Shown piece by piece: positions 818 through 41,804 of a stretch of 41,804 bases of DNA. The stretch is from a virus. The DNA is taken from positions 1 to 41,804 of IMG/VR virus record IMGVR_UViG_3300046816_000149. One strand, written 5' to 3'. Numbering within the stretch: the first letter of the stretch is position 1; the number at the start of each line of letters is the position of its first letter. The translations under genes were made by a program, and so were the position numbers. Under the pieces are notes generated by a model. That model was not told the DNA's origin and searched no databases. It was given only the letters and a program-made list of their open reading frames with translations.

Positions 818-1038
818 CCGGTGCTGAGTTCACCGAGGCGCTTGCTTCGATCGGCTGGTCCCGACGACATCTGGCGTATCTGCTGGAGTGCGATCTGAAG
901 CTGGCGCTGCGCTGGGAACAGGAGGCTGCGCCGATCCCGCCGAGCATTGCGAAGTGGTTGGAGAGGCTTGCGCAGTTTCACATGAAACAACCGCCGCCGG
1001 ATGATTGGCGCGTGCGTTATTCGGTTGGCAGCGACTGA
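814..1038 (+). CDS. Helix-turn-helix DNA-binding protein, 74 aa
   Basis: This is a small Cro/C1-type helix-turn-helix protein. Residues 8-45 read as an HTH: an LASIGWSRRHLAYLL helix pair followed by a recognition segment ending in RWEQ, then IPPSIAKWLERL. It resembles one-domain regulators found in alphaproteobacterial phages and prophages. The ribosome site GAGGAGG lies just before the ATG, and the start overlaps the previous stop by 4 bases. It is the last gene of the 485-1038 operon, and its 3' end overlaps the convergent TerS-like gene by 22 bases. It may control the divergent region at 384-484, but its target is unknown. Confidence 0.7.
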   Translation: MTGAEFTEALASIGWSRRHLAYLLECDLKLALRWEQEAAPIPPSIAKWLERLAQFHMKQPPPDDWRVRYSVGSD

Positions 1039-1379
1039 TCGAGCAGATTGGTTTCATCCTGCGGCGCAGGCTCAACCTTGCCCTCGATGAGTTGCTGCGA
1101 TGTAGCGCGTGCAGCTTCGAGGTGGAGGAGGAAGATGTTTCCGCCGATCTGGGCGGTGAGATCAGTTGATGACAGATCGGGCAGCGTCTTGCGCAGCAGG
1201 CCGAGAGCGGCACGAACTTGCGTATCGGTCATCTCGAAAGGGCCTTTGGGATTGTGACCGTTACCTCCAGCGGGGTCGGCCAAACCCAAAGCGAATGCGT
1301 TCAATCGTTTACAAAGCTGTGTTGTCTGGATGGCTGAACGTGAGCGCGCATCCTGCATTGGGTTCAGTCGTGCGGACAT
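1017..1379 (-). CDS. Putative small terminase subunit-like protein
   Basis: This 120-residue protein has a C-terminal half (MTDTQVRAALGLLRKTLPDL and following) that resembles a compact helical domain found in phage proteins often annotated as small terminase subunit. The N-terminus is basic and could bind DNA. TerS recognises the packaging site and hands DNA to TerL. It is the last gene of the early leftward operon, directly after the NusG-like gene, which it overlaps by 16 bases. On the circular map the next leftward genes are the late block with TerL. The assignment is by motif memory only, and a plain conserved hypothetical is the alternative. ATG at 1358 is a second possible start, but it has no ribosome site. 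Confidence 0.5.
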   Translation of the reverse strand: MSARLNPMQDARSRSAIQTTQLCKRLNAFALGLADPAGGNGHNPKGPFEMTDTQVRAALGLLRKTLPDLSSTDLTAQIGGNIFLLHLEAARATSQQLIEGKVEPAPQDETNLLDQSLPTE

Positions 1380-1936
1380 TCTCGTCGTTCCAGGCTGGCA
1401 ATTGGCATGAACACTTCGCGGATATGGCCGAACATCATCAGTCCAATACGTGCTGTATCGCCATGAACGCCGATGACAGCGCCGACCATACCGCAGGCAG
1501 CCCCTTTGCTGACCACCACAGCCTCGCCCACGGCGATGAGCGACCCGTCTGGGGCACAGGTAGCACGAACCGCCTCGGACGCCTGTAGCGCGCTAATTAT
1601 GCCCCTAGCGACGATGTGCGGTTTCAGCCCTGCCATGAGCAGCCTGGAGATGCCGAGCGTCGAGCGGATTGGCGCCCAGTGCGAGCCAGGGATCACGAAC
1701 ACGTAGCCGGACCAGAGCGGGACGCTGACGCGGTGACGCATTGAGGCCACGACGCGATCGCGGCGGAAGGCGATGGTCATTGGCAGGTAGGCCGTGAAGC
1801 CCTGACGCACCAGGTTCGCTAATGCCCATCGCTCGGCCTGGGGATGAGTTTGGCATACGGCCCAACGGCTACCGCACGCGGCGATGCTGTCGCGGTTGTG
1901 TTCGTCTAGCGCCACTGCAACCGCCGCGTCAAGCAT
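1364..1936 (-). CDS. NusG/RfaH-like transcription factor
   Basis: The 190-residue product has the two-domain build of NusG-family elongation factors. An NGN-like domain covers about residues 23-120 (RWAVCQTHPQAERWAL, then PLWSGYVFV, the conserved strand of the family). A KOW-like domain covers about 136-185 (VGEAVVV, then CGMVGAVIGV). NusG and RfaH bind the clamp helices of RNA polymerase and suppress pausing or Rho termination. The gene is the last but one of the early operon, just before the TerS-like gene and the late block, which is the place of Q in lambdoid phages. A late antitermination role is inferred. The start is uncertain. ATG 1936 overlaps the upstream stop by 8 bases, and ATG 1963 is an alternative. 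Confidence 0.85.
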   Translation of the reverse strand: MLDAAVAVALDEHNRDSIAACGSRWAVCQTHPQAERWALANLVRQGFTAYLPMTIAFRRDRVVASMRHRVSVPLWSGYVFVIPGSHWAPIRSTLGISRLLMAGLKPHIVARGIISALQASEAVRATCAPDGSLIAVGEAVVVSKGAACGMVGAVIGVHGDTARIGLMMFGHIREVFMPIASLERRECPHD

Positions 1937-2201
1937 GGCGTTGGAACTCGCCGCACCAGGCATCGGCGTAGGTTCGCGGGAACATTGCCCAGTTCCTGGT
2001 TTCGGTGACCTCTGCGTCGGTGCCATCGGGCCATTTCACGTTGTGGGCGACGGACAGCATGTGGGCGACGGCGATGATGGCCTCGCCGGCGAACAGCGTG
2101 GCCTGATTGGCGGCGGTTGGCGCATGGCGCCGGCACTCTCCGATCTCGCCCAGGTCGGCCCGCGGTTTCCAGTAGCGGCACATGCTGCACTCGTCGGTCA
2201 T
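1929..2201 (-). CDS. Small Cys-rich protein, 90 aa
   Basis: The product has CSMC (residues 5-8), then GECRRHAP near residue 24 and DAWCGEF close to the C-terminus. These Cys and His positions suggest a zinc site. The pattern CxxC...GECRRHAP...WCGE is familiar from small uncharacterised phage and prophage proteins, but no function is known to me. Its ATG overlaps the stop of the membrane protein gene by one base (TGATG at 2199-2203). An in-frame upstream extension to 2300 would overlap that gene and is rejected. Confidence 0.75.
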   Translation of the reverse strand: MTDECSMCRYWKPRADLGEIGECRRHAPTAANQATLFAGEAIIAVAHMLSVAHNVKWPDGTDAEVTETRNWAMFPRTYADAWCGEFQRHA

Positions 2202-2359
2202 CAGTGCAGCAGCGGGGTGGCGGAGCGGAACAGCTCGGCGGCGATCCAGAAGGCGATGGCGGCCCAGCCGAGATGCGGGCGAGACAGGGCGACGGGCCAT
2301 GCCGATGCGGCGAGCACGGCGCAGACGAAGGCGAACACGAGCAGGATGAGGCTGATCAT
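2201..2359 (-). CDS. Small two-helix membrane protein, 52 aa
   Basis: This 52-residue protein is almost entirely hydrophobic, with one segment at residues 2-24 (ISLILLVFAFVCAVLAA) and another around 30-43 (LGWAAIAFWIAA), separated by a short loop. It could be a small inner-membrane protein. A holin role cannot be excluded, but nothing in the neighbourhood supports lysis because it lies in the early operon. Its ATG overlaps the stop of the replication initiator gene (2359-2361) by one base, and its own stop overlaps the next start, so translation is coupled on both sides. Confidence 0.6.
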   Translation of the reverse strand: MISLILLVFAFVCAVLAASAWPVALSRPHLGWAAIAFWIAAELFRSATPLLH

Positions 2360-3264
2360 CAGGCGGTCCTCCCGAATTGCTGCGCCATGGACGCAGCCTG
2401 GATCTGCTCGCGGGTGAGGTAAGCGGCTTTGGGACGTGGCAGCGGATCGCACAGCGCCATCTGCTCCTCGCGGCTGAGCACGGCGGCTCTGGGCGGGTAG
2501 GCTTTCATGCGCAGGGCGTGGCGCATCTCGGCGAACGCGGCGAGCGCCCGTGCCGGGTCTACCGGCGCATCGAGCGGGTCGGCCTCGGCCTTGGGCAGCG
2601 CGTCATCCGGCGACGGGTCGTCGAGGAACGCATCGGACGAGCGGCCGGGGATCGTGAGCGCCTGGGAGCCGCCGCCACCGGGAGTTGCACCGAGCACGGG
2701 CGCCTTGGGTGGGGCTGCTGGCGGAGCGGCAGCGGGCTTGCTTGCCTTTTCTCCGGAATCTGAATCCTTCGCTGGCTTGCCTCGCGCGCGCTCGCGCGTC
2801 TTAGGGTCTTCTTCTTGGGTACTAAAAGGGTCGGCGGAACTGAGTTCCGGGGTTTGGGAACTGAGTTCCGGGGTCAGTGACGCAGAGTTCCGGGGTATGG
2901 GCGGAACTGTGTTCCGGGGTAGACCGGCACCATTTGCCGGGGCGGAACTATGAGCCGGGGCGGATGTGAGAGCCGGGGAGGAACTGAGTTCCGCACCTAT
3001 AGGTTGTCTCAGAATGTGATAATGGGTCAGCTTGCCGGGTGTCGCATCCACCCGGATCAGCCCTAAGGACACCAGTTCCGGGATCAGTTTCCGGATGTGC
3101 CGCTCGGTCATCCGGGTGAACTTCGCCAGCCTCGGCTGCCCCGTGTAGAAGTGCCCAGTGCAGTTCGCCTGGTCCGCCATGTAGGCCAGGAGCAGCAGTT
3201 GCCCCGAGGTGAGCTTGAGCTTCACGCCCATCTCAAAGGCCCACGCAAATGCCGGTGCGCTCAT
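2359..3264 (-). CDS. Winged-helix replication initiator-like protein
   Basis: The 301-residue product begins with a winged-helix domain (about residues 15-90: LTSGQLLLLAYMAD, then TERHIRKLIPELVSLGLI), of the HTH_36 or phage-O type. A long low-complexity Pro/Ala/Ser linker follows (about 95-210), then a C-terminal segment that may contact a helicase loader or helicase. Proteins of this build start phage or plasmid replication. The linker-coding DNA holds a cluster of iteron-like palindromes (2836-2992), as the lambda O gene contains the lambda origin. The ATG has a GGAGG 9 bases upstream and overlaps the DnaA-like stop by 4 bases. The pairing with a DnaA-like gene supports a replication role. 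Confidence 0.75.
   Translation of the reverse strand: MSAPAFAWAFEMGVKLKLTSGQLLLLAYMADQANCTGHFYTGQPRLAKFTRMTERHIRKLIPELVSLGLIRVDATPGKLTHYHILRQPIGAELSSSPALTSAPAHSSAPANGAGLPRNTVPPIPRNSASLTPELSSQTPELSSADPFSTQEEDPKTRERARGKPAKDSDSGEKASKPAAAPPAAPPKAPVLGATPGGGGSQALTIPGRSSDAFLDDPSPDDALPKAEADPLDAPVDPARALAAFAEMRHALRMKAYPPRAAVLSREEQMALCDPLPRPKAAYLTREQIQAASMAQQFGRTA
2836..2992. repeat. Iteron-like repeat cluster, candidate replication origin
   Basis: Several copies of a unit close to GGAACTGAGTTCCGGGGT lie within 157 bases. Copies with both palindrome arms (GGAAC-N3-GTTCC) begin at 2836, 2857, 2903 and 2980. Half-conserved copies begin near 2879, 2944 and 2962. Start-to-start spacing is 18-24 bases apart from one gap of 41, where a CCGGC/GCCGG inverted repeat (2924-2940) sits. 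The repeats lie in the linker region of the replication initiator gene. They are read in two different frames there (TPELSS in copies 2836 and 2857, PRN in copies 2879 and 2903), so the DNA rather than the peptide is conserved. Less GC-rich stretches flank the cluster at about 2800-2832 and 2995-3025. Confidence 0.75.
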
Positions 3265-3536
3265 GCCGCAGCCCTCCGCAGATCCTCGACCACCGCCGCG
3301 AACGCCGGGTCGCCCGCCATCAAGGCGTCAACCCGCTTAACCGCCTGCATCACGGTCGTATGGTCACGGTTGCCGAATGCCCGCCCGATCGCCGGGAACG
3401 AGGCCGGCGTGGAATGGCGGCACAGCCACATCGCCACCTGGCGCGGCCGCGCCGACGCCTGCCGGGCGGATACCAGGTCGAGCGCCGTCGCCCCCATGCG
3501 GGAGGCCACGAGCTTCTGAATGTCATGGATCGTCAT
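3261..3536 (-). CDS. DnaA domain IV-like DNA-binding protein
   Basis: This 91-residue protein corresponds to the C-terminal DNA-binding domain of DnaA alone. It has the basic loop and helix ARPRQVAMWLCRHST (residues 29-43) and the DnaA signature GRAFGNRDHTTVMQAVKRV (51-69), with the D-H-T-T box contacts at 58-61. In full DnaA this domain binds DnaA boxes. The AAA+ ATPase and helicase-loading domains are absent, so the protein cannot itself open an origin. It could occupy host or phage DnaA boxes or act as a regulator. ATG 3536 is chosen because AAGGGG lies 8 bases upstream and the domain starts there. It overlaps the initiator gene by 4 bases. The 161-bp gap before it is structured. Confidence 0.9.
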   Translation of the reverse strand: MTIHDIQKLVASRMGATALDLVSARQASARPRQVAMWLCRHSTPASFPAIGRAFGNRDHTTVMQAVKRVDALMAGDPAFAAVVEDLRRAAA

Positions 3537-3697
3537 GGACAAGCCCCTTGCGTTACGACTCGGGGCATGCGAAATGGGGTTTGCACCTTCCCATTCGCGG
3601 CCGCCCCGGCCGTTGGTTACAGTTTCAGCGGCCCTCGTGCTTCCAACACGGGGGCCGTCGTCGTTTGTAGCCTGAAACGGGGAGAGCCGAAAGGCGT
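3537..3697 (-). promoter_or_regulatory. Structured leader upstream of DnaA-like gene
   Basis: This is the only sizeable gap in the leftward operon, whose other genes mostly overlap. Read on the minus strand it has an outer stem GTTTCAG/CTGAAAC (3672-3678 with 3622-3628). That encloses an 11-bp stem with one mismatch, CGGCCC-C-CGTG / CACG-A-GGGCCG, with a 7-base loop centred near 3643. A second hairpin pairs 3590-3598 with 3569-3578 (one bulged A). No T-run follows, so a simple terminator is unlikely. A GANTC site (GACTC, 3557-3561) lies just before the ribosome site. An attenuator, RNA-based control element, small RNA or internal promoter are all possible. Confidence 0.5.
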
Positions 3698-3943
3698 TCA
3701 TTGCATGAACTCCCCCGGTATCCGCCCGGTCTTTGCCGTCTCGATCAGCTTCGCCGCGATGGTCTCGGCAATGGCGACGCGCAGGGGGACGTTATCCTCC
3801 TCCAAAAGCAGTACCTGAGCCAGCACAAAGCCGGTCTCGATCACCGCCTGAAACCAACCGCAGTCCGCTGCATCCAGAGCTACGCCGATCAGCTTCGGCA
3901 ACTCCGACTCATGGTTCCAGCCTTCGGGATAGCGGTCGGTCAT
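3698..3943 (-). CDS. Unknown protein, 81 aa
   Basis: This 81-residue protein has no domain I recognise. The sequence is predicted to be mostly helical, with an acidic stretch (LLEEDN) and a hydrophobic run (VIETGFVLAQVLLL) that looks like a buried helix rather than a membrane segment. ATG 3943 overlaps the stop of the upstream gene by 4 bases (ATGA), which favours this start over the longer frame from 3970. A structured 161-bp gap follows before the DnaA-like gene, so this gene may end a translational sub-block. Confidence 0.6.
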   Translation of the reverse strand: MTDRYPEGWNHESELPKLIGVALDAADCGWFQAVIETGFVLAQVLLLEEDNVPLRVAIAETIAAKLIETAKTGRIPGEFMQ

Positions 3944-4386
3944 GCGGCACCGCGCCGCCCGCCATGCCATGCCCGCAGCGCGTCAGCGTGCCGCAGCAAC
4001 GCCATGCCACCACGCCGCATGCGCATCTCATTGTATTCAACGTCGTCGTCGTCCATCAGATCGCGCAGGATGTAGACCGGCTCCTCACCCTGCGGCACGC
4101 GGCGCGGATAGCGCTTCTGCAACGTGTCGGAGAAGAAGTCAGCCTGCCCGCTGTCCAACTCGTCCTGCACCTTGGCATTCGGGTCGTGCCGCTTGCGCAA
4201 TTCCTGCCGCGCCATCTGGCGGACTTCGAGGTGGCAGCCGGCGTAGCCGAGGTAATGCAGCGACGGCTTGAACTCGATGGCGCACATAACGTGCGTGGCA
4301 ATCCACGCCGGGCTGAGTGTCGGCACGTCGCCCTGTTCCTCGATCACCCGCCGGGTTTCGGCGTACAGTTGTTCCTCTGCTGTCAT
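3940..4386 (-). CDS. Unknown protein, 148 aa
   Basis: This is a soluble, charged 148-residue protein. The N-terminal part (EEQLYAETRRVIEEQG, then LSPAWIATHVMCAIE) is helical and reminiscent of uncharacterised proteins in alphaproteobacterial phages. The centre has RQMARQELRKRHD, and the C-terminus is acidic then basic (MDDDDVEYNEMRMRR). No catalytic motif is visible. ATG 4386 overlaps the upstream stop (ATGA at 4383-4386). It lies in the early operon between a conserved phage protein and the 81-aa protein, and nothing in the context defines its job. Confidence 0.65.
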   Translation of the reverse strand: MTAEEQLYAETRRVIEEQGDVPTLSPAWIATHVMCAIEFKPSLHYLGYAGCHLEVRQMARQELRKRHDPNAKVQDELDSGQADFFSDTLQKRYPRRVPQGEEPVYILRDLMDDDDVEYNEMRMRRGGMALLRHADALRAWHGGRRGAA

Positions 4387-4985
4387 TTGCCGATCCTCCC
4401 CAGCCAATCGCGCACCGATGGCGCGAGGTTCTTTGTCGTTGTCTGCATGTGGTCGAGCATGGTGCCGACCAGTTCATTCGGGTCAGCGCTCAGCAGTCCT
4501 TCGCGCTCGAAATCCAGCAGCCGGCCCCACAGCCACAGCGCGCGCTTGTCCACCTGCGTTTGCTTAGGCTCGCTGTGCGCAGCAATGATGCCGGCGGTTG
4601 TTGCCCCAGGCTGCCGTACAGCTTCGTCGAACTCATCGTCTGGTATGTCGGCGAGCTTCTGCCAGTCGGACGACTGCTGCTTGGAAATACCCAGATCGGC
4701 GAGTGTTTCGGTGGTAGGATCATCCGACCGCCGATGTTCTCCCCCTTGCTCACGCCCATTCATGCGAGCGCCGGTTGCCATGCCTTGCTCGCGCTTTAGC
4801 TGCGCCGCTTTACGCTCTGCACGCAGCCTAATCTCGCACGCCTGGCGCTCCGCCTCTACGTTCTTCGCCTGCCGTGCATAGACCTCTATTGCGCGGGCCT
4901 TGTCACGAATGTCTTTGACCTCATCAACGGAATACGCGGCAGTGATCGCGCTGCACATCGCGTCATAGCGGACCATCTCGTTCAT
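4383..4985 (-). CDS. Conserved phage protein, 200 aa, unknown function
   Basis: The N-terminal half (VDEVKDIRDKARAIEVYARQA, then EIRLRAERKAAQLKR) resembles a protein family common in phages and mobile elements. In that family a helical charged region is followed by a T-LADLGI-S segment that resembles a ParB/KorB-like helix-turn-helix, here TLADLGISKQQSSDWQKLA at about residues 94-112. DNA binding is therefore plausible, but no function has been established that I know of. ATG 4985 overlaps the nuclease gene stop by 4 bases. An in-frame extension upstream to 5525 would lie inside the nuclease and GcrA-like genes and is rejected. Confidence 0.75.
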   Translation of the reverse strand: MNEMVRYDAMCSAITAAYSVDEVKDIRDKARAIEVYARQAKNVEAERQACEIRLRAERKAAQLKREQGMATGARMNGREQGGEHRRSDDPTTETLADLGISKQQSSDWQKLADIPDDEFDEAVRQPGATTAGIIAAHSEPKQTQVDKRALWLWGRLLDFEREGLLSADPNELVGTMLDHMQTTTKNLAPSVRDWLGRIGK

Positions 4986-5398
4986 GCCGCCACCCGCGCC
5001 CGCAAATGCACCGCCGCCTCCAACAGCGACGCCTCGACCTCGGCCACGCTGCGGCACAGACAGACAGCCGCCCCGGCATAGATCAGCCGCCGCTGCATCT
5101 CCCGCTGCGCCGCGGACACCACGCCGCGCTTCGCCTTGAGTTCGATGAACACGGCCCGGCCGCGGTGCACCACGCACAGATCCGGGACACCGGCACGCAC
5201 GCCGAGCCCCTTCATGCGCGCCGCCTCGCGGGCATGCCGCTTGCCACCGTTCGGAATGGCGAACGCCACCGCGTCGGCCGGCAGCGCCACGTCGAGGAAC
5301 GCCATCGTCGCCTTCTGCAGGTCGTCCTCTAGGTGCTGCCGCGGCGCTACGTCCGGCAGCATCATCTCGCCAACGAACATGCCGCCCGGCACCCTCAT
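4982..5398 (-). CDS. VRR-NUC domain nuclease
   Basis: The 138-residue product is a single VRR-NUC domain, a PD-(D/E)XK-type nuclease fold seen in phage proteins and in eukaryotic FAN1. Visible motifs are E24 (EDDLQKA), GVPD at 70-73, IELK with E86 and K88, and Q98 in SAAQRE. These give the metal-binding D73, E86 and K88 set. Such phage enzymes cleave branched or flapped DNA, for example Holliday junctions. The partner may be the RecT-like annealing protein in the rightward operon, for which no exonuclease is seen. ATG 5398 has GGAG 8 bases upstream and overlaps the GcrA-like stop by 4 bases. Confidence 0.88.
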   Translation of the reverse strand: MRVPGGMFVGEMMLPDVAPRQHLEDDLQKATMAFLDVALPADAVAFAIPNGGKRHAREAARMKGLGVRAGVPDLCVVHRGRAVFIELKAKRGVVSAAQREMQRRLIYAGAAVCLCRSVAEVEASLLEAAVHLRARVAA

Positions 5399-5802
5399 GC
5401 CACGCGCTCCGCACGCAGGCCGTAGACGCGCCGGTAGTGCGGCTCGCACCACGACGTGCCAGGCCGCACACAGCCTCCGCAGTACAGCCAGGGCGGCCCC
5501 GAGCCGTTGAGCCATTTGCACTCACCCGCCGGCGGCGGCGCAGGAGGCGGCGGCGGCACGGGCATAGGCGCCACCACCGGCTTGCGCTTGCGCACCACGG
5601 GCGCCGGCTTGAGCTTCAGCACCTGGCCCGGCCGGCAGCCGCCGCCGTAGTTGTTGCCCTGCAGCCGGATGCCGAGGCGCCGGCATTTGCCGATGATCTG
5701 GTTTTTGGTGAGATCCATGGCCGCGCCGATCGCCGAGCCGGACAGCCCCTCGGCCACCAGCCGCCGCAGCATCGCCGTCCGCGCCTCGGGCCACGGGCTC
5801 AT
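5395..5802 (-). CDS. GcrA-family cell cycle regulator-like protein
   Basis: The 135-residue protein matches both ends of GcrA. The N-terminal DNA-binding domain (residues 4-45) has W, then LVAEGLSGSAIGAAM and LTKNQIIGKCRRLGI, matching the T-x-N-x-x-I-G-K-x-x-R-L-G signature. A Pro/Lys-rich linker (60-92) follows. The C-terminal sigma70-interacting type domain (95-127) has CKW, YCG, WCEPH and a final Tyr. Caulobacter GcrA binds sigma70 RNA polymerase and activates promoters carrying methylated GANTC. The Cys pattern here is C95, C108, C111 and C119. The start at 5802 overlaps the upstream TAA (TAATG). The family is an alphaproteobacterial hallmark and supports that host. Mimicry or replacement of the host protein is inferred. 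Confidence 0.88.
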   Translation of the reverse strand: MSPWPEARTAMLRRLVAEGLSGSAIGAAMDLTKNQIIGKCRRLGIRLQGNNYGGGCRPGQVLKLKPAPVVRKRKPVVAPMPVPPPPPAPPPAGECKWLNGSGPPWLYCGGCVRPGTSWCEPHYRRVYGLRAERVA

Positions 5803-6206
5803 TACGCGTTTGCCCGTTTCACTATCCCGGCAATGCCGGCCTTTGTCATGCCACCGCCCAGAACTCGCGCTATCATCTTCATTGGCGCACCAATCCCCCG
5901 CATACGTCGAACAAGCCACATTTCCTGCGCTGTCACGCGCGAGTGCGGCTGGTGCGGCGGCAGTCCCAACTCTCGGCCGCATATCGGACAATCAATCACA
6001 CGGCGCTCGCCAGGACGGCCAAGGAGGCGCGGCAACATCTCGCCTGTATCAATCAGCTTCTGGGCCTCCTTGCGAATAGTGACCACTGACCGCCCGACAT
6101 GCTCGGCCACCGCGCGATAGCCGCCGGCCCGAGCGGGGCCAAGCAGTTCGGCACGGATCGCCGCGCGCTCCGCATCGGTCACCGCACAGCGAGGGCCACC
6201 TCTCAT
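5802..6206 (-). CDS. DNA-binding protein with zinc knuckle, 134 aa
   Basis: The protein seems to have three parts. An N-terminal helix-turn-helix-like segment (VTDAERAAIRAEL, then YRAVAEHVGRSVVTIRKEAQKL, about residues 10-50) is followed by a CPICGREL knuckle near residue 72. A second helical segment (TAQEMWLVRRM, then MIARVLGGGMTKAGIAGIVKRA) looks like another HTH. It is probably a transcription regulator or DNA-associated factor, and I cannot name a family. ATG 6206 is chosen because GGAGG lies 5 bases upstream. ATG 6221 is in frame but lacks such a site. It is the second gene of the early leftward operon. Confidence 0.65.
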   Translation of the reverse strand: MRGGPRCAVTDAERAAIRAELLGPARAGGYRAVAEHVGRSVVTIRKEAQKLIDTGEMLPRLLGRPGERRVIDCPICGRELGLPPHQPHSRVTAQEMWLVRRMRGIGAPMKMIARVLGGGMTKAGIAGIVKRANA

Positions 6207-6264: not shown

Positions 6265-6468
6265 TCACGGATTAGCCGGCGCGCCGGGCTTCGTGCGTTC
6301 GAGGTGTTCGATCGTCAGCCCTGGCTTGAGGGCTGCGACGCGATGCCAATACCTGGCCGGAATCCCGCGCTTGTACCACGACTTCACTGTCTCCGGCTTC
6401 AGCCCGAGCACGCTCGCAAGTGTGTTACGGCCCCCAATCTTGTTGAGGATAGCGCCGTGTCGGGTCAT
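6265..6468 (-). CDS. Cro-like helix-turn-helix protein, 67 aa
   Basis: This small protein has one HTH (residues 9-33: KIGGRNTLASVLGLKPETVKSWYKRG), followed by IPARYWHRVAAL, the layout of Cro/YdaS-like phage regulators. It is the first gene leftward from the switch and faces the XRE-type repressor gene at 6566, as cro faces cI. It is probably the lytic-side repressor. ATG 6468 is favoured over the TTG at 6522 because the domain begins there, although only a weak AGG precedes it. A leaderless or weakly initiated transcript is possible. Confidence 0.7.
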   Translation of the reverse strand: MTRHGAILNKIGGRNTLASVLGLKPETVKSWYKRGIPARYWHRVAALKPGLTIEHLERTKPGAPANP

Positions 6469-6565: not shown

Positions 6566-6988
6566 ATGTGCAGTAAGATGATGATCGATCCACAGGTAGA
6601 GACTCAGCTACAGCTTCTCGGCACCCGCCTGAAATGGGCGCGGGAACTGATCGAACCCAATCGTGCGGAGTTCTGCCGCTCGATCGGCGTGGATGTCTCA
6701 ACGATCAGGAATATCGAGAACGGCTCACGGGGGCCTTCCGTGCCCCTGCTTATGCATATTTGCCATTGTTTGCGTATATCCCCCGAGTACCTGCTGCGCG
6801 GAGAACTTCGCGGAGTAGATGGGGAACTGGCGGCCCGGCTGACAGCGCGTCATCCCGAGCTAGCGACTCCGCCCGAGCTAGCGACTCCGCCCGAGCTAGC
6901 CCGCAGCAAACCTTACAGGGCCGCGTCATTGTACAGCGCTCGTCCCGCCAGGACACCAGAGAATGTTTCGTCCCAAGAGGGGCATTAG
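6566..6988 (+). CDS. XRE-family repressor-like protein (CI analogue)
   Basis: The 140-residue protein has an XRE-type helix-turn-helix at about residues 17-70: LGTRLKWARELIEPNRAEF, then IGVDVSTIRNIENGSRGPSV and LLMHICHCLRISPEYLL. The C-terminal part is short and Pro/Ala-rich, with tandem PELATP units coded by an 18-bp DNA repeat. No LexA/S24 autopeptidase domain is present, so an SOS-cleaved CI is unlikely. It lies between the Cro-like gene and the rightward operon and is probably the master repressor. The start is uncertain among ATG 6566, 6578 and 6581. None has a good ribosome site, so a leaderless mRNA, as for lambda cI, is possible. Confidence 0.75.
   Translation: MCSKMMIDPQVETQLQLLGTRLKWARELIEPNRAEFCRSIGVDVSTIRNIENGSRGPSVPLLMHICHCLRISPEYLLRGELRGVDGELAARLTARHPELATPPELATPPELARSKPYRAASLYSARPARTPENVSSQEGH
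6854..6900 (+). repeat. 18-bp tandem repeat, 2.6 copies
   Basis: The unit CCCGAGCTAGCGACTCCG occurs at 6854-6871 and 6872-6889, followed by an 11-base partial copy to 6900. It lies in frame in the repressor gene and codes for repeated PELATP. The copies are identical, which suggests recent slippage. Each full unit contains a GACTC (GANTC) site. A change in copy number would lengthen or shorten the repressor tail without a frameshift. Confidence 0.9.
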
Positions 6989-9275: not shown

Positions 9276-9458
9276 ATGACGATGCAGCGTAAATCCTTTC
9301 AGTTCACTGTGCATGGCGACCAGCAGACTGGCGTGATCTACGTCACCCGCTCGTTCACCGACGAGGCGCAGGCGTTGACCCAGGCGACCAAGATCGCCGC
9401 CCGTCGCTCCGGTGATCCATCTCCGATATTCGTCCGCATCGTGCCTCCGGTGCGGTAG
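9276..9458 (+). CDS. Unknown protein, 60 aa
   Basis: The 60-residue product is probably a small alpha/beta protein (KSFQFTVHGDQQTGVIYVTRS, then a helix DEAQALTQATKIAA and a last strand IFVRIVPPV). No family is recognised. AAGG lies just before the ATG, and the gene follows the RecT-like gene after 5 bases. Its stop overlaps the GTG start of the C5 methyltransferase (TAGTG at 9456-9460). Confidence 0.65.
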   Translation: MTMQRKSFQFTVHGDQQTGVIYVTRSFTDEAQALTQATKIAARRSGDPSPIFVRIVPPVR

Positions 9459-10393
9459 TGCTCCGCGTCCTCGACCTGTTCAGCGGCATCGGCGCCTTCA
9501 GCCTCGGCCTGGAGCGGGCCGGCATGCGGACAGTCGCGTTCTGCGAAATTGAGCCTTTCGCCCGCCGCGTGCTCGCAAGGCACTGGCCGGATGTCCATAT
9601 CTTCGGCGACGTGCGCGAGTTGTCCGCGCAGCATCTTTCCGAGAAAGGGCTGGGCGTTGACCTCATCTGCGGCGGCTTCCCCTGCCAGGACATCAGCGTT
9701 GCCGGACGAGGCGCCGGCATCGGCGGAGCGCGCAGCGGACTGTGGTCAGAGTTCGCCCGGCTCATTGGCGAGATACGACCCCGCTACGCGATCGTGGAGA
9801 ACGTCTCAGCTTTGCTTGGACGGGGACTTGGAGACGTTCTCGGAGACCTGGCCGCGCTCGGGTATGATGCAGAGTGGCACTGCATTCCCGCTGCGGCCGT
9901 TGGCGCACCGCACATCAGAGACCGCATCTGGATTGTGGCCTACGCCGGACACGGGCATGACCCCGAATGGTCACGGCAAAAGGGGAGGCAAGCCGGGGAA
10001 CGGTCGCCAGAGTGGCGCAAGCCTCGATGCGATGGCGAGGCACGGCATGTGGACAACGCCGCGAGCGAACGATGCGAAGCAATCAGCATGGTGCAGCGGA
10101 GCGAACGGCACGCGCATCCTGACGCTCACCGGACAGGTTCGGAAATGGCCGACGCCCACGGCGGTGACCAACACCGGCGGCGCGGCCCTATGCAAGTGGG
10201 GTGGGTCAGGCGCTCGTGCGAAGCTGCGCTCCATGGTGACGGAGCAGGAGTTCAATGGAGCGTTGAACCCGACGTGGGTCGAGTGGCTCATGGGGTTGCC
10301 TCTCGGGTGGACCGACTTAGGTGCCTCGGCAACTCGCTCGTCCCGCAGATACCCGAGTTGATCGGCCGTGCGATCCTGGCAAATACAGATTGA
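9458..10393 (+). CDS. C5-cytosine DNA methyltransferase
   Basis: The 311-residue enzyme has the Dcm-type motifs in order: I (DLFSGIGAFSLG, residues 6-17), IV with catalytic Cys76 (GGFPCQDIS), VI (ENV, 114-116), VIII (RDRIWIV) and IX-X (RLRCLGNSLVPQ) near the C-terminus. It transfers methyl from AdoMet to cytosine C5. The target-recognition region (about 160-270) is His/Arg-rich and the specificity is unknown. No restriction enzyme is near, so it probably protects phage DNA. GTG 9458 overlaps the previous TAG. A second open frame of 270 codons (9549..10361, +1) covers most of the gene and also looks protein-like. Confidence 0.9.
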   Translation: MLRVLDLFSGIGAFSLGLERAGMRTVAFCEIEPFARRVLARHWPDVHIFGDVRELSAQHLSEKGLGVDLICGGFPCQDISVAGRGAGIGGARSGLWSEFARLIGEIRPRYAIVENVSALLGRGLGDVLGDLAALGYDAEWHCIPAAAVGAPHIRDRIWIVAYAGHGHDPEWSRQKGRQAGERSPEWRKPRCDGEARHVDNAASERCEAISMVQRSERHAHPDAHRTGSEMADAHGGDQHRRRGPMQVGWVRRSCEAALHGDGAGVQWSVEPDVGRVAHGVASRVDRLRCLGNSLVPQIPELIGRAILANTD

Positions 10394-12343: not shown

Positions 12344-12516
12344 TGGGTTGGCTATTCCTCTTGGTCGTCCTGGTCTGTGTTTTCCCGGCATTCATGATCG
12401 GCGCCATGGCGATCGGCTTGGGGGCGCTCTATTGGCTGCTCCCCATCGCCGCAGCGGTCGCCGTCGCGTGGATGGTCAGAGATGCGTGGAACACCCACCG
12501 CGCCTATCGTCACTGA
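12343..12516 (+). CDS. Small membrane protein, 57 aa
   Basis: The 57-residue product has two adjacent hydrophobic segments (about residues 3-24 and 26-44) and a short basic C-terminus (RDAWNTHRAYRH). This is the size and shape of a small class II holin or another inner-membrane protein. It is the last gene of the rightward early operon, which does not favour a holin. Its 3' end overlaps the convergent last late gene by 7 bases, leaving no room for a terminator between the two operons. Confidence 0.55.
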   Translation: MGWLFLLVVLVCVFPAFMIGAMAIGLGALYWLLPIAAAVAVAWMVRDAWNTHRAYRH

Positions 12517-38946: not shown

Positions 38947-39168
38947 TCATTGGCGCTGCGTCAGGCACGACTCGATTATGCGCTGAATCATCTCATTCCT
39001 GACGCTGGTGTTGTGCTGGAACACCCATGCCGCGACGCCAAGGAACGCGATGTTCATGATGATCAGAAGCAAAAATGCTGGCGGCAGAGCGCGGACGAGC
39101 CGCTCGCTCAACCGATCGATCAGGCCGTGGCGCCCGTTGCCGTTCGGTGGTGTTACGACATCGACCAT
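38947..39168 (-). CDS. Single-pass membrane protein, 73 aa
   Basis: The 73-residue product has a basic amphipathic stretch (LIDRLSERLVRALP), one transmembrane helix (FLLLIIMNIAFLGVAAWVF, about 32-50) and a polar C-terminus (SVRNEMIQRIIESCLTQ). Similar small proteins are common in alphaproteobacterial podoviruses near terminase genes. A holin or spanin-like lysis role is possible, and the Cys near the end could form a disulfide. No endolysin is adjacent. ATG 39168 overlaps the upstream gene by 16 bases. Confidence 0.6.
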   Translation of the reverse strand: MVDVVTPPNGNGRHGLIDRLSERLVRALPPAFLLLIIMNIAFLGVAAWVFQHNTSVRNEMIQRIIESCLTQRQ

Positions 39169-40862: not shown

Positions 40863-41804
40863 TCGGCAGCATCCGCAAACAGGTCGGCCATGCGCTCGGT
40901 CTCCGGGTCTTCGGCAGGCGGGAACGCGGTGAACAGCGGCGCGTCGTCGCGGCAGCGCTGCATGGCCATGCGCGTATAGTCGGGGTTGAGTTCTATGCCG
41001 ATGGCGTCGCGTTGCAGGCGATCGGCGACCAACAGCGTGGTGCCGGCACCGGCGAAGGGGTCGAGGACCGTATCACCAAGGCGCGTGCCCGCCCGGATGC
41101 AGCGCTCGGCCAGGGCTGGTGGGTACGTGGCGAAGTGGGCTTGTGCATACGGATGCGTGGGCAGAGTCCAAACATTACGTAGGTTGCGGCCGGCTGGGTT
41201 GTAACTACGCGCCGCACCTGAAGGGTTCAGCAACGGCCGCGCAAGAGGGTCACCGAAAGCCTTGGGCTCATACCGTTCGACGCCATAGTGCTCAGGCGGC
41301 AATCCAGTGTGCGGCTCCCGCACCGCCTCGGCATCATAGAAATACCGTGCGCTGCGTGTCAGCAGGAACACGTGCTCATGGGCTGACGTTGGGCGATCGG
41401 TGCATGACTCGGGCATGGGGTTGGGCTTGTGCCAGATGATGTCGGAGCGCACCCACCAGCCGTCAGCCTGCAGCGCGAGCGCCAGGCGCGAGGGCATCAT
41501 CAGCAACTGCTTGGCAGCGAGGCCAGTGAACGCCTTGGGCGACGCTGTGGGCTTGCCAGCGTTGCCGTTGAAGCCGCTGCCCTGGTTGGCGTTGTACGAG
41601 TCACCGATGTTACACCAAACCGTGCCGTCCTTGCGCAGCACGCGGCGAACCTCCCTGAACACGGCGACCATGGTGGCGAGGTATTCGTCGGGCGTGGGTT
41701 CCAGGCCGATCTGCCGGTCAATGCGCCGGGCGCCGCACGAGCATTGACGCGGTGTAGCGTCGCGGTTCGTCCACGTAGCAACGCCGCCCTCTGCATGCCG
41801 CTTG
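40859..41804 (-). CDS. DNA methyltransferase (SPPY type), C-terminal part; gene continues at position 1
   Basis: This is the larger part of the junction-spanning enzyme. The frame stays open from 41671 back to the window end and joins the frame at 144 and below. Motif I DPFAGAGTTLLVADRL and GIELNPDYTRMAM are near the C-terminus, and SPPYW lies on the other end. This is the IV-before-I order of beta-class amino methyltransferases. The middle has VWCNIGDSYN, WVRSDIIWHKPNPMPES and EHVFLLTRSARYFYDAEAV, the usual phage-enzyme blocks that likely help target recognition. The target is unknown and no restriction gene is near. Its stop overlaps the 569-aa gene by 4 bases. Confidence 0.9.
   Translation of the reverse strand, partial: KRHAEGGVATWTNRDATPRQCSCGARRIDRQIGLEPTPDEYLATMVAVFREVRRVLRKDGTVWCNIGDSYNANQGSGFNGNAGKPTASPKAFTGLAAKQLLMMPSRLALALQADGWWVRSDIIWHKPNPMPESCTDRPTSAHEHVFLLTRSARYFYDAEAVREPHTGLPPEHYGVERYEPKAFGDPLARPLLNPSGAARSYNPAGRNLRNVWTLPTHPYAQAHFATYPPALAERCIRAGTRLGDTVLDPFAGAGTTLLVADRLQRDAIGIELNPDYTRMAMQRCRDDAPLFTAFPPAEDPETERMADLFADAAE
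41661..41804. repeat. Direct terminal repeat, right copy
   Basis: This matches 1..144 at 142 of 144 positions. The two differences (GG at 41704-41705 against AA at 44-45) change Leu TTG to CTG and Gly GGT to GGC in the methyltransferase frame, so both are silent. The unique genome length is therefore 41660 bp if this is an assembly overlap. Confidence 0.95.

Follow-up and report, generated by a model that had tools for sequence, protein, structure and literature searches.

The 41,804-nucleotide virus record IMGVR_UViG_3300046816_000149 of IMG/VR, which we refer to at its full length as the window, contains an early operon that includes a gene for a GcrA-family protein and a gene for a protein made up of a solo DnaA domain IV (DnaA-IV). 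A 144 bp direct repeat is present at the two ends of the record (1-144 and 41661-41804, with two mismatches), giving a unit of 41,660 bp, and we therefore take the record to be a complete, circularly closed phage genome. Profile searches place the portal and capsid proteins in the SU10 type, and an alphaproteobacterial host is probable; no prophage relatives turned up when 84,980 species genomes were scanned with the portal and GcrA proteins. The individual parts belong to known families, and an existing annotation, that of Synechococcus phage Ssp-JY42, already lists the two together. What is new is a count showing that the solo DnaA domain IV is frequent as an early gene in these phages, independently of GcrA.

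Identification of the DnaA domain IV and GcrA-family proteins

The initial annotation of this DNA gave coordinates for the two genes and quoted the motif GRAFGNRDHTTVMQAVKRV, all of which prove to be exact, and both protein identities are far beyond chance. The product of 3261-3536(-) had been described as the DnaA box-binding domain and nothing else, and this description holds. It scores 77.1 bits against PF08299 (cut-off 31.5) and covers the complete profile (positions 1-69 of 69), and phmmer matches it to Escherichia coli DnaA domain IV (1j1v) at E=7e-14. Structure prediction, which had been suggested as a check, agrees: the AlphaFold model (predicted local distance difference test score, pLDDT, of 95) aligns with 1j1v in Foldseek with a template-modelling score (TM) of 0.94 and a root-mean-square deviation of 1.0 Å. 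The equivalog profile for full DnaA, TIGR00362, which includes the AAA+ domain, gives 85.8 bits against a cut-off of 343.9, and only positions 347-435 of its 437 are aligned. Because the open reading frame is too short and a conserved non-coding leader lies upstream of it, we conclude that the AAA+ domain and domain I are absent.

In the 1J1V structure the DnaA box is contacted in the major groove by P423, D433, H434 and T435, and in the minor groove by R399. All four major-groove residues are kept in the window protein when it is aligned with 1j1v, and the equivalents of H434, D433 and R407 are nearly invariant across 56 distinct phage DnaA-IV domains. R399 aligns with Q26 (a methionine in L004), in a loop that is two residues shorter and in which the placement of the gap is uncertain; R25 remains nearby. 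It is thus possible, judging from this loop, that the DNA specificity of the window protein is altered. The list of contact residues was drawn in part from PMC9638019.

The protein encoded at 5395-5802(-) had been credited with both signature ends of GcrA, and these are indeed present. PF07750 is matched at 45.1 bits (Pfam gathering cut-off 26.9), all seven columns that are invariant in 16 phage GcrA proteins are found (W4, G19, G38, R42, C95, C108 and C119), and the C-terminal sigma-interaction-type motif C-W/F-G-C-C-H is represented by C95, W97, G100, C108, C119 and H122. With phmmer, Caulobacter crescentus GcrA (5yiu) is matched at E=6.6e-4 through its N-terminal helix-turn-helix (HTH), and full-length GcrA (7ye1) weakly (E=0.5) with the C-terminal CKW..CGG..C..H motif included; the same two structures are the best Foldseek targets of the predicted model, at weak E values (for 5yiu 1.1 Å, target TM 0.81, E 0.075). 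The NCBIfam equivalog for cell-cycle GcrA (NF050816) scores 23.7 bits against a cut-off of 280, and we therefore regard the window protein as a member of the family and not as the host orthologue. A tblastn search with this protein against 50,697 phage records returned no relative.

Knowledge of phage-borne GcrA goes back to 2012 (Gill et al., PMC3556154). The homologues in phiCbK-like Caulobacter phages (gp222; PMC3556154) share with the window protein the N-terminal HTH and C-terminal Cys/His motif, and the same architecture is seen in gp5 of Agrobacterium phage Atu_ph08 (PMC6630229) and in phiLM21-like prophages of Sinorhizobium meliloti (PMC12429752). The setting differs, however: phiCbK-like genomes exceed 200 kb, whereas the window gene sits in a small lambda-like early operon, immediately after a cro-like and an HTH gene.

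We also note that the early operons of these phages repeatedly hold GcrA-like HTH units that lack the C-terminal domain. One is the window protein at 5802-6204(-), which has no NCBIfam match and whose C-terminal half, judged by eye, is similar to the GcrA HTH; others occur elsewhere, as in L027, where such an HTH is fused to an HNH-type protein (1027-2202(-)) and the C-terminal GcrA domain is missing. In L006 an HTH_38 domain is fused to DnaA domain IV (2241-2975(+)).

Distribution of the two genes among related phages

The presence of both genes in one operon had led to the proposal that they form a cell-cycle interference module, with co-occurrence in related phages set in advance as its test. 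We drew two sets of phages by their structural genes alone, regardless of GcrA or DnaA-IV, for a total of 72 contigs of alphaproteobacterial type. The first comprises 30 near-complete relatives found through their portal or capsid protein, and the second 42 contigs of at least 25 kb found with terminases from phages that infect Bradyrhizobium and Rhizobium. GcrA is above the cut-off in five phages of the first set (13 at E<=0.001) and DnaA-IV is present in two, with none having both; the corresponding numbers in the second set are six, 15 and one, so that the solo domain is common on its own in an unselected collection (15/42). Together, 11 of the 72 contigs have GcrA, 17 have DnaA-IV and one has both, against 2.5 expected with stratification, and the proposal of a joint module thus fails its test, although these are small sets that include fragmentary contigs and the statistics ignore kinship. 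Conversely, GcrA is present in 4/20 DnaA-IV phages compared with 11/72 overall (p=0.73), and DnaA-IV in 12/48 GcrA phages compared with 17/72 overall (p=1.0). Since co-occurrence matches background, the pair is not a conserved module; GcrA and DnaA-IV are accessory genes that are gained and lost independently. A search of viral contigs with a reduced alignment gave no loci beyond those already found.

The phage DnaA-IV gene usually lies within an early-type operon and overlaps the next gene by 4 nucleotides in 23 of 41 loci; cultured phages that carry it include Bradyrhizobium ppBjS10J-1 and Rhizobium RHph_N28_2. In the closest relatives of the window it is placed directly before the initiator gene (of either HTH_36 or DUF1376 type), with or without GcrA. 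An annotated parallel for the pair, Ssp-JY42 (PP438432.1), likewise has the two genes in a single operon, with about 4 kb between them, labelled 'putative GcrA cell cycle regulator' and 'chromosomal replication initiator DnaA' (C-terminal); it is nonetheless distant kin of the window phage, with a different gene order and a gene for a DnaB-type helicase.

Organization of the early operon

The features of the operon are listed below in leftward order, followed by the divergent repressor gene. All operon genes are on the same strand, in agreement with the single leftward operon originally proposed, and 4-nucleotide ATGA overlaps join the GcrA gene to the VRR-NUC gene and the DnaA-IV gene to the O-like gene. 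Most genes in the stretch that runs from the operon across the genome joint as far as the structural genes at 12510 are also on one strand, and a single long leftward unit may therefore be present.

Table. Features of the early operon and its divergent neighbour, with the matches that identify them.
Feature	Position	Strand	Evidence
Cro/YdaS-like HTH protein, first gene of the operon	6265..6468	-	PF15943 YdaS E=1e-5; P22_Cro 0.04; phrog_8008 2e-10
HTH protein, no assigned family	5802..6204	-	HTH_38 E=0.003, under cut-off
GcrA-family protein (HTH DNA-binding domain and C-terminal sigma-interaction-type motif), 135 aa (amino acids)	5395..5802	-	PF07750 E=1.8e-11
VRR-NUC nuclease	4958..5398	-	PF08774 1e-5; phrog_824 4e-32
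Phage protein of unknown function	4383..4961	-	phrog_33995 1e-10
Protein of unknown function	3940..4386	-	no profile match (Pfam, PHROG)
Protein of unknown function	3698..3943	-	no profile match (Pfam, PHROG)
Conserved non-coding leader with covarying hairpin (3579-3666)	3537..3697	-	comparison with relatives
Solo DnaA domain IV protein, 91 aa	3261..3536	-	PF08299 E=1e-21; TM 0.94 to 1j1v
O-like replication initiator (HTH_36), ATGA overlap with DnaA-IV	2359..3264	-	PF13730 5e-7; phrog_391 replication initiation O-like 2e-8
Six iteron-like repeats within the initiator gene; probable phage origin	2828..2996	.	repeat analysis
RfaH/NusG-like protein, candidate antiterminator	1364..2026	-	TIGR01955 8e-17; PF02357
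CI-like repressor, divergent from the operon	6566..6988	+	HTH_3 1.3e-7

The order of genes in the lambda pR operon is cro-cII-O-P-...-Q, and the gene order and origin placement seen here are lambda-like: a repressor and cro pair is followed by an activator slot, an O-like initiator with internal iterons and a gene of the late antitermination type. The differences are that GcrA takes the place of CII, DnaA-IV precedes O and an RfaH/NusG-like protein takes the place of Q. The Cro/YdaS-like gene begins with an ATG at 6468 in a reading frame that is open to 6522 and is divergent from the CI-like gene, within which there is a perfect 18 bp tandem repeat at 6854-6900.

As in lambda-type replication modules, the initiator gene carries its own iterons (six in the window), and the initiator genes of three relatives hold their own, different repeats (L307 2059-2207, L033 7720-7856 and L032 5023-5158). 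DnaA boxes were considered as origin sites of the phage and rejected. There is no strict consensus box in the window and only two sites with one mismatch, compared with 2.8 expected; strict boxes are near the gene in four of about 50 phage DnaA-IV loci (0.24 expected from shuffles), a count not significantly above that in control DNA from GcrA phages (p=0.10).

The 161 bp ahead of the DnaA-IV start are conserved and non-coding, and contain a hairpin at 3579-3666(-) with the loop YTGGAA followed by CTGnAACTGTAACCAACGGCC. The hairpin is also present in L002, L004, L003, L308, L307 and L013 (in two copies), and weakly in L511 and L512, and it occurs also without DnaA-IV downstream. Stem pairs 2-4 covary between phages, and pairing of each arm with its own partner exceeds that in all 20,000 permutations, with arms that were chosen by hand; the hairpin has no match in Rfam. 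The RfaH/NusG-like gene, which comes close to the end of the operon and is present in 14 of 30 relatives, encodes a candidate late antiterminator that possibly acts at this hairpin.

Possible roles of GcrA and DnaA-IV

The interpretation that we favour, with moderate confidence, is that this is a lambda-pR-like early operon in which GcrA and DnaA-IV would be separate regulators of transcription acting through the host sigma70, and not the components of one cell-cycle device. GcrA occupies the position of cII, after cro and before the replication genes, and would assist sigma70 at methylated GANTC promoters, consistent with the suggestion in the initial annotation that the phage protein could work with host sigma70, which stands as a putative function. 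DnaA-IV would bind DNA and contact sigma70 in the manner of GafY, switching on phage or selected host genes, and perhaps would also help the adjacent initiator. The operon that they share would simply be where such phages store accessory regulators. This assignment of both proteins to sigma70 RNA polymerase follows from their described relatives, the phiCbK-like GcrA proteins and Caulobacter GafY/HdaB.

Caulobacter GafY (CCNA_01111, formerly HdaB) is described as a homologue of DnaA domain IV that activates the gene transfer agent (GTA) cluster in a sigma70-dependent manner, by binding promoters and contacting RpoD domains 3-4 (PMC9632790, PMC11150451). As these reports outline, the first reading of the protein was that it regulates replication; subsequent work showed that it activates transcription of a phage-like element. 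The window protein resembles it, by description, in consisting of domain IV only and in the link of GafY to phage-like gene expression; GafY, however, has GafZ as its partner, encoded with it in a gafYZ operon, whereas the gene next to DnaA-IV is the HTH_36 initiator. A similar use of a DnaA-type HTH in activating a phage-derived cluster is seen in Rhodobacter capsulatus GafA, in which the DnaA-like N-terminal domain is required for activation (PMC9638019, PMC6363796), although GafA is fused to a sigma-like C-terminal half and the window protein stands alone.

Several observations weigh against this interpretation. DnaA-IV is nearer to true DnaA (the 85.8 bits to TIGR00362) than to the PRK06030 small proteins, whose profiles NF004686-8 give 23.8, 22.6 and 20.2 bits against cut-offs of 148, 181 and 136; it has nothing beyond domain IV that could be regarded as an extension, and no GafZ-like neighbour was recognised beside it, with no GafZ profile searched directly. 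GANTC is depleted threefold in the window, with 39 sites compared with 134 expected, and these are not clearly at promoters. Adjacency to the initiator is, moreover, equally compatible with a role in replication.

Such a role is the main alternative, which we consider distinctly less probable: DnaA-IV would be a replication accessory helping at the neighbouring phage origin, by binding at or near it, aiding the O-like initiator, or recruiting host DnaA or helicase. In the window, L032, L033 and L307 the gene immediately precedes that of the initiator and shares an ATGA overlap with it; in L308 a single small gene separates them, and the two are neighbours in 8 of 42 loci when all are counted. 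The initiator gene probably contains a lambda-type origin, and there is a strict DnaA box just downstream in L004 and L067. The window itself, however, has no consensus box, the iterons are wholly different among phages though DnaA-IV is conserved, an O-like initiator is present without DnaA-IV in G024, G031 and G038, and the helicase-loading parts of DnaA are missing from the solo domain. Because the phage has no DnaA boxes, DnaA-IV binding would fall on host DNA, and a competitor of host DnaA can be envisaged that sits on boxes at oriC and at DnaA-regulated promoters, stops host initiation and frees replication proteins for the phage. We consider this unlikely. It accords with the loss of the AAA+ domain from a protein that keeps the fold and major-groove contacts of domain IV, and with the altered DNA content and blocked division on overexpression of Caulobacter HdaB/GafY summarised in PMC9632790; yet the same report reinterprets the HdaB phenotype as GTA activation, and the alignment of the minor-groove R399 with Q26 in the shortened loop described above, where the gap placement is uncertain, also speaks against it.

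A joint takeover of the host cell cycle by GcrA and DnaA-IV is very improbable. The two genes do share an operon in the window, in G003, G004 and G065 (as neighbours in the latter two) and in Ssp-JY42, but the pair is not enriched in the unselected phage sets, and PF07750 matches close to DnaA-IV in several cases consist of the HTH alone and lack the C-terminal domain. A broader view, which we put forward only tentatively, is that solo DnaA-IV may represent a widespread and previously unrecognised class of early regulator in alphaproteobacterial phages, which in the course of infection would retune either sigma70 transcription or the traffic at DnaA boxes of the host; GcrA would be an optional partner, reading the DNA methylation state. 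Because it is common in these phages, the solo domain is worth a functional test, and the phage proteins would help to decide which role is ancestral, that of replication regulator or that of transcription activator, both of which have been assigned in turn to the sole characterised cellular relative. More generally, these phages repeatedly retain, in the early operon, stripped-down pieces of the cell-cycle and replication machinery of their hosts, which are exchanged freely as single genes.

The further suggestion that GcrA drives the phage's own promoters found no positive support in the GANTC sites, which, besides being depleted, are hardly ever within promoter-like intergenic DNA of the window. 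A GAGTC 21 nucleotides ahead of the DnaA-IV start is not kept in relatives, the GANTC pair at 38969/38985 is within a short possible reading frame, and depletion is common to other DnaA-IV and GcrA phage loci. We also considered whether a phage CcrM completes the circuit, since a DNA methyltransferase gene spans the genome joint; this was rejected, because the enzyme carries an SPPY motif and its score, taken on the part without the N-terminus, is 94, with 830 as the CcrM cut-off. A C5 cytosine methyltransferase is also encoded, at 9458-10393(+), and over short stretches its gene is about 81-85% identical at the DNA level to cyanophage records.

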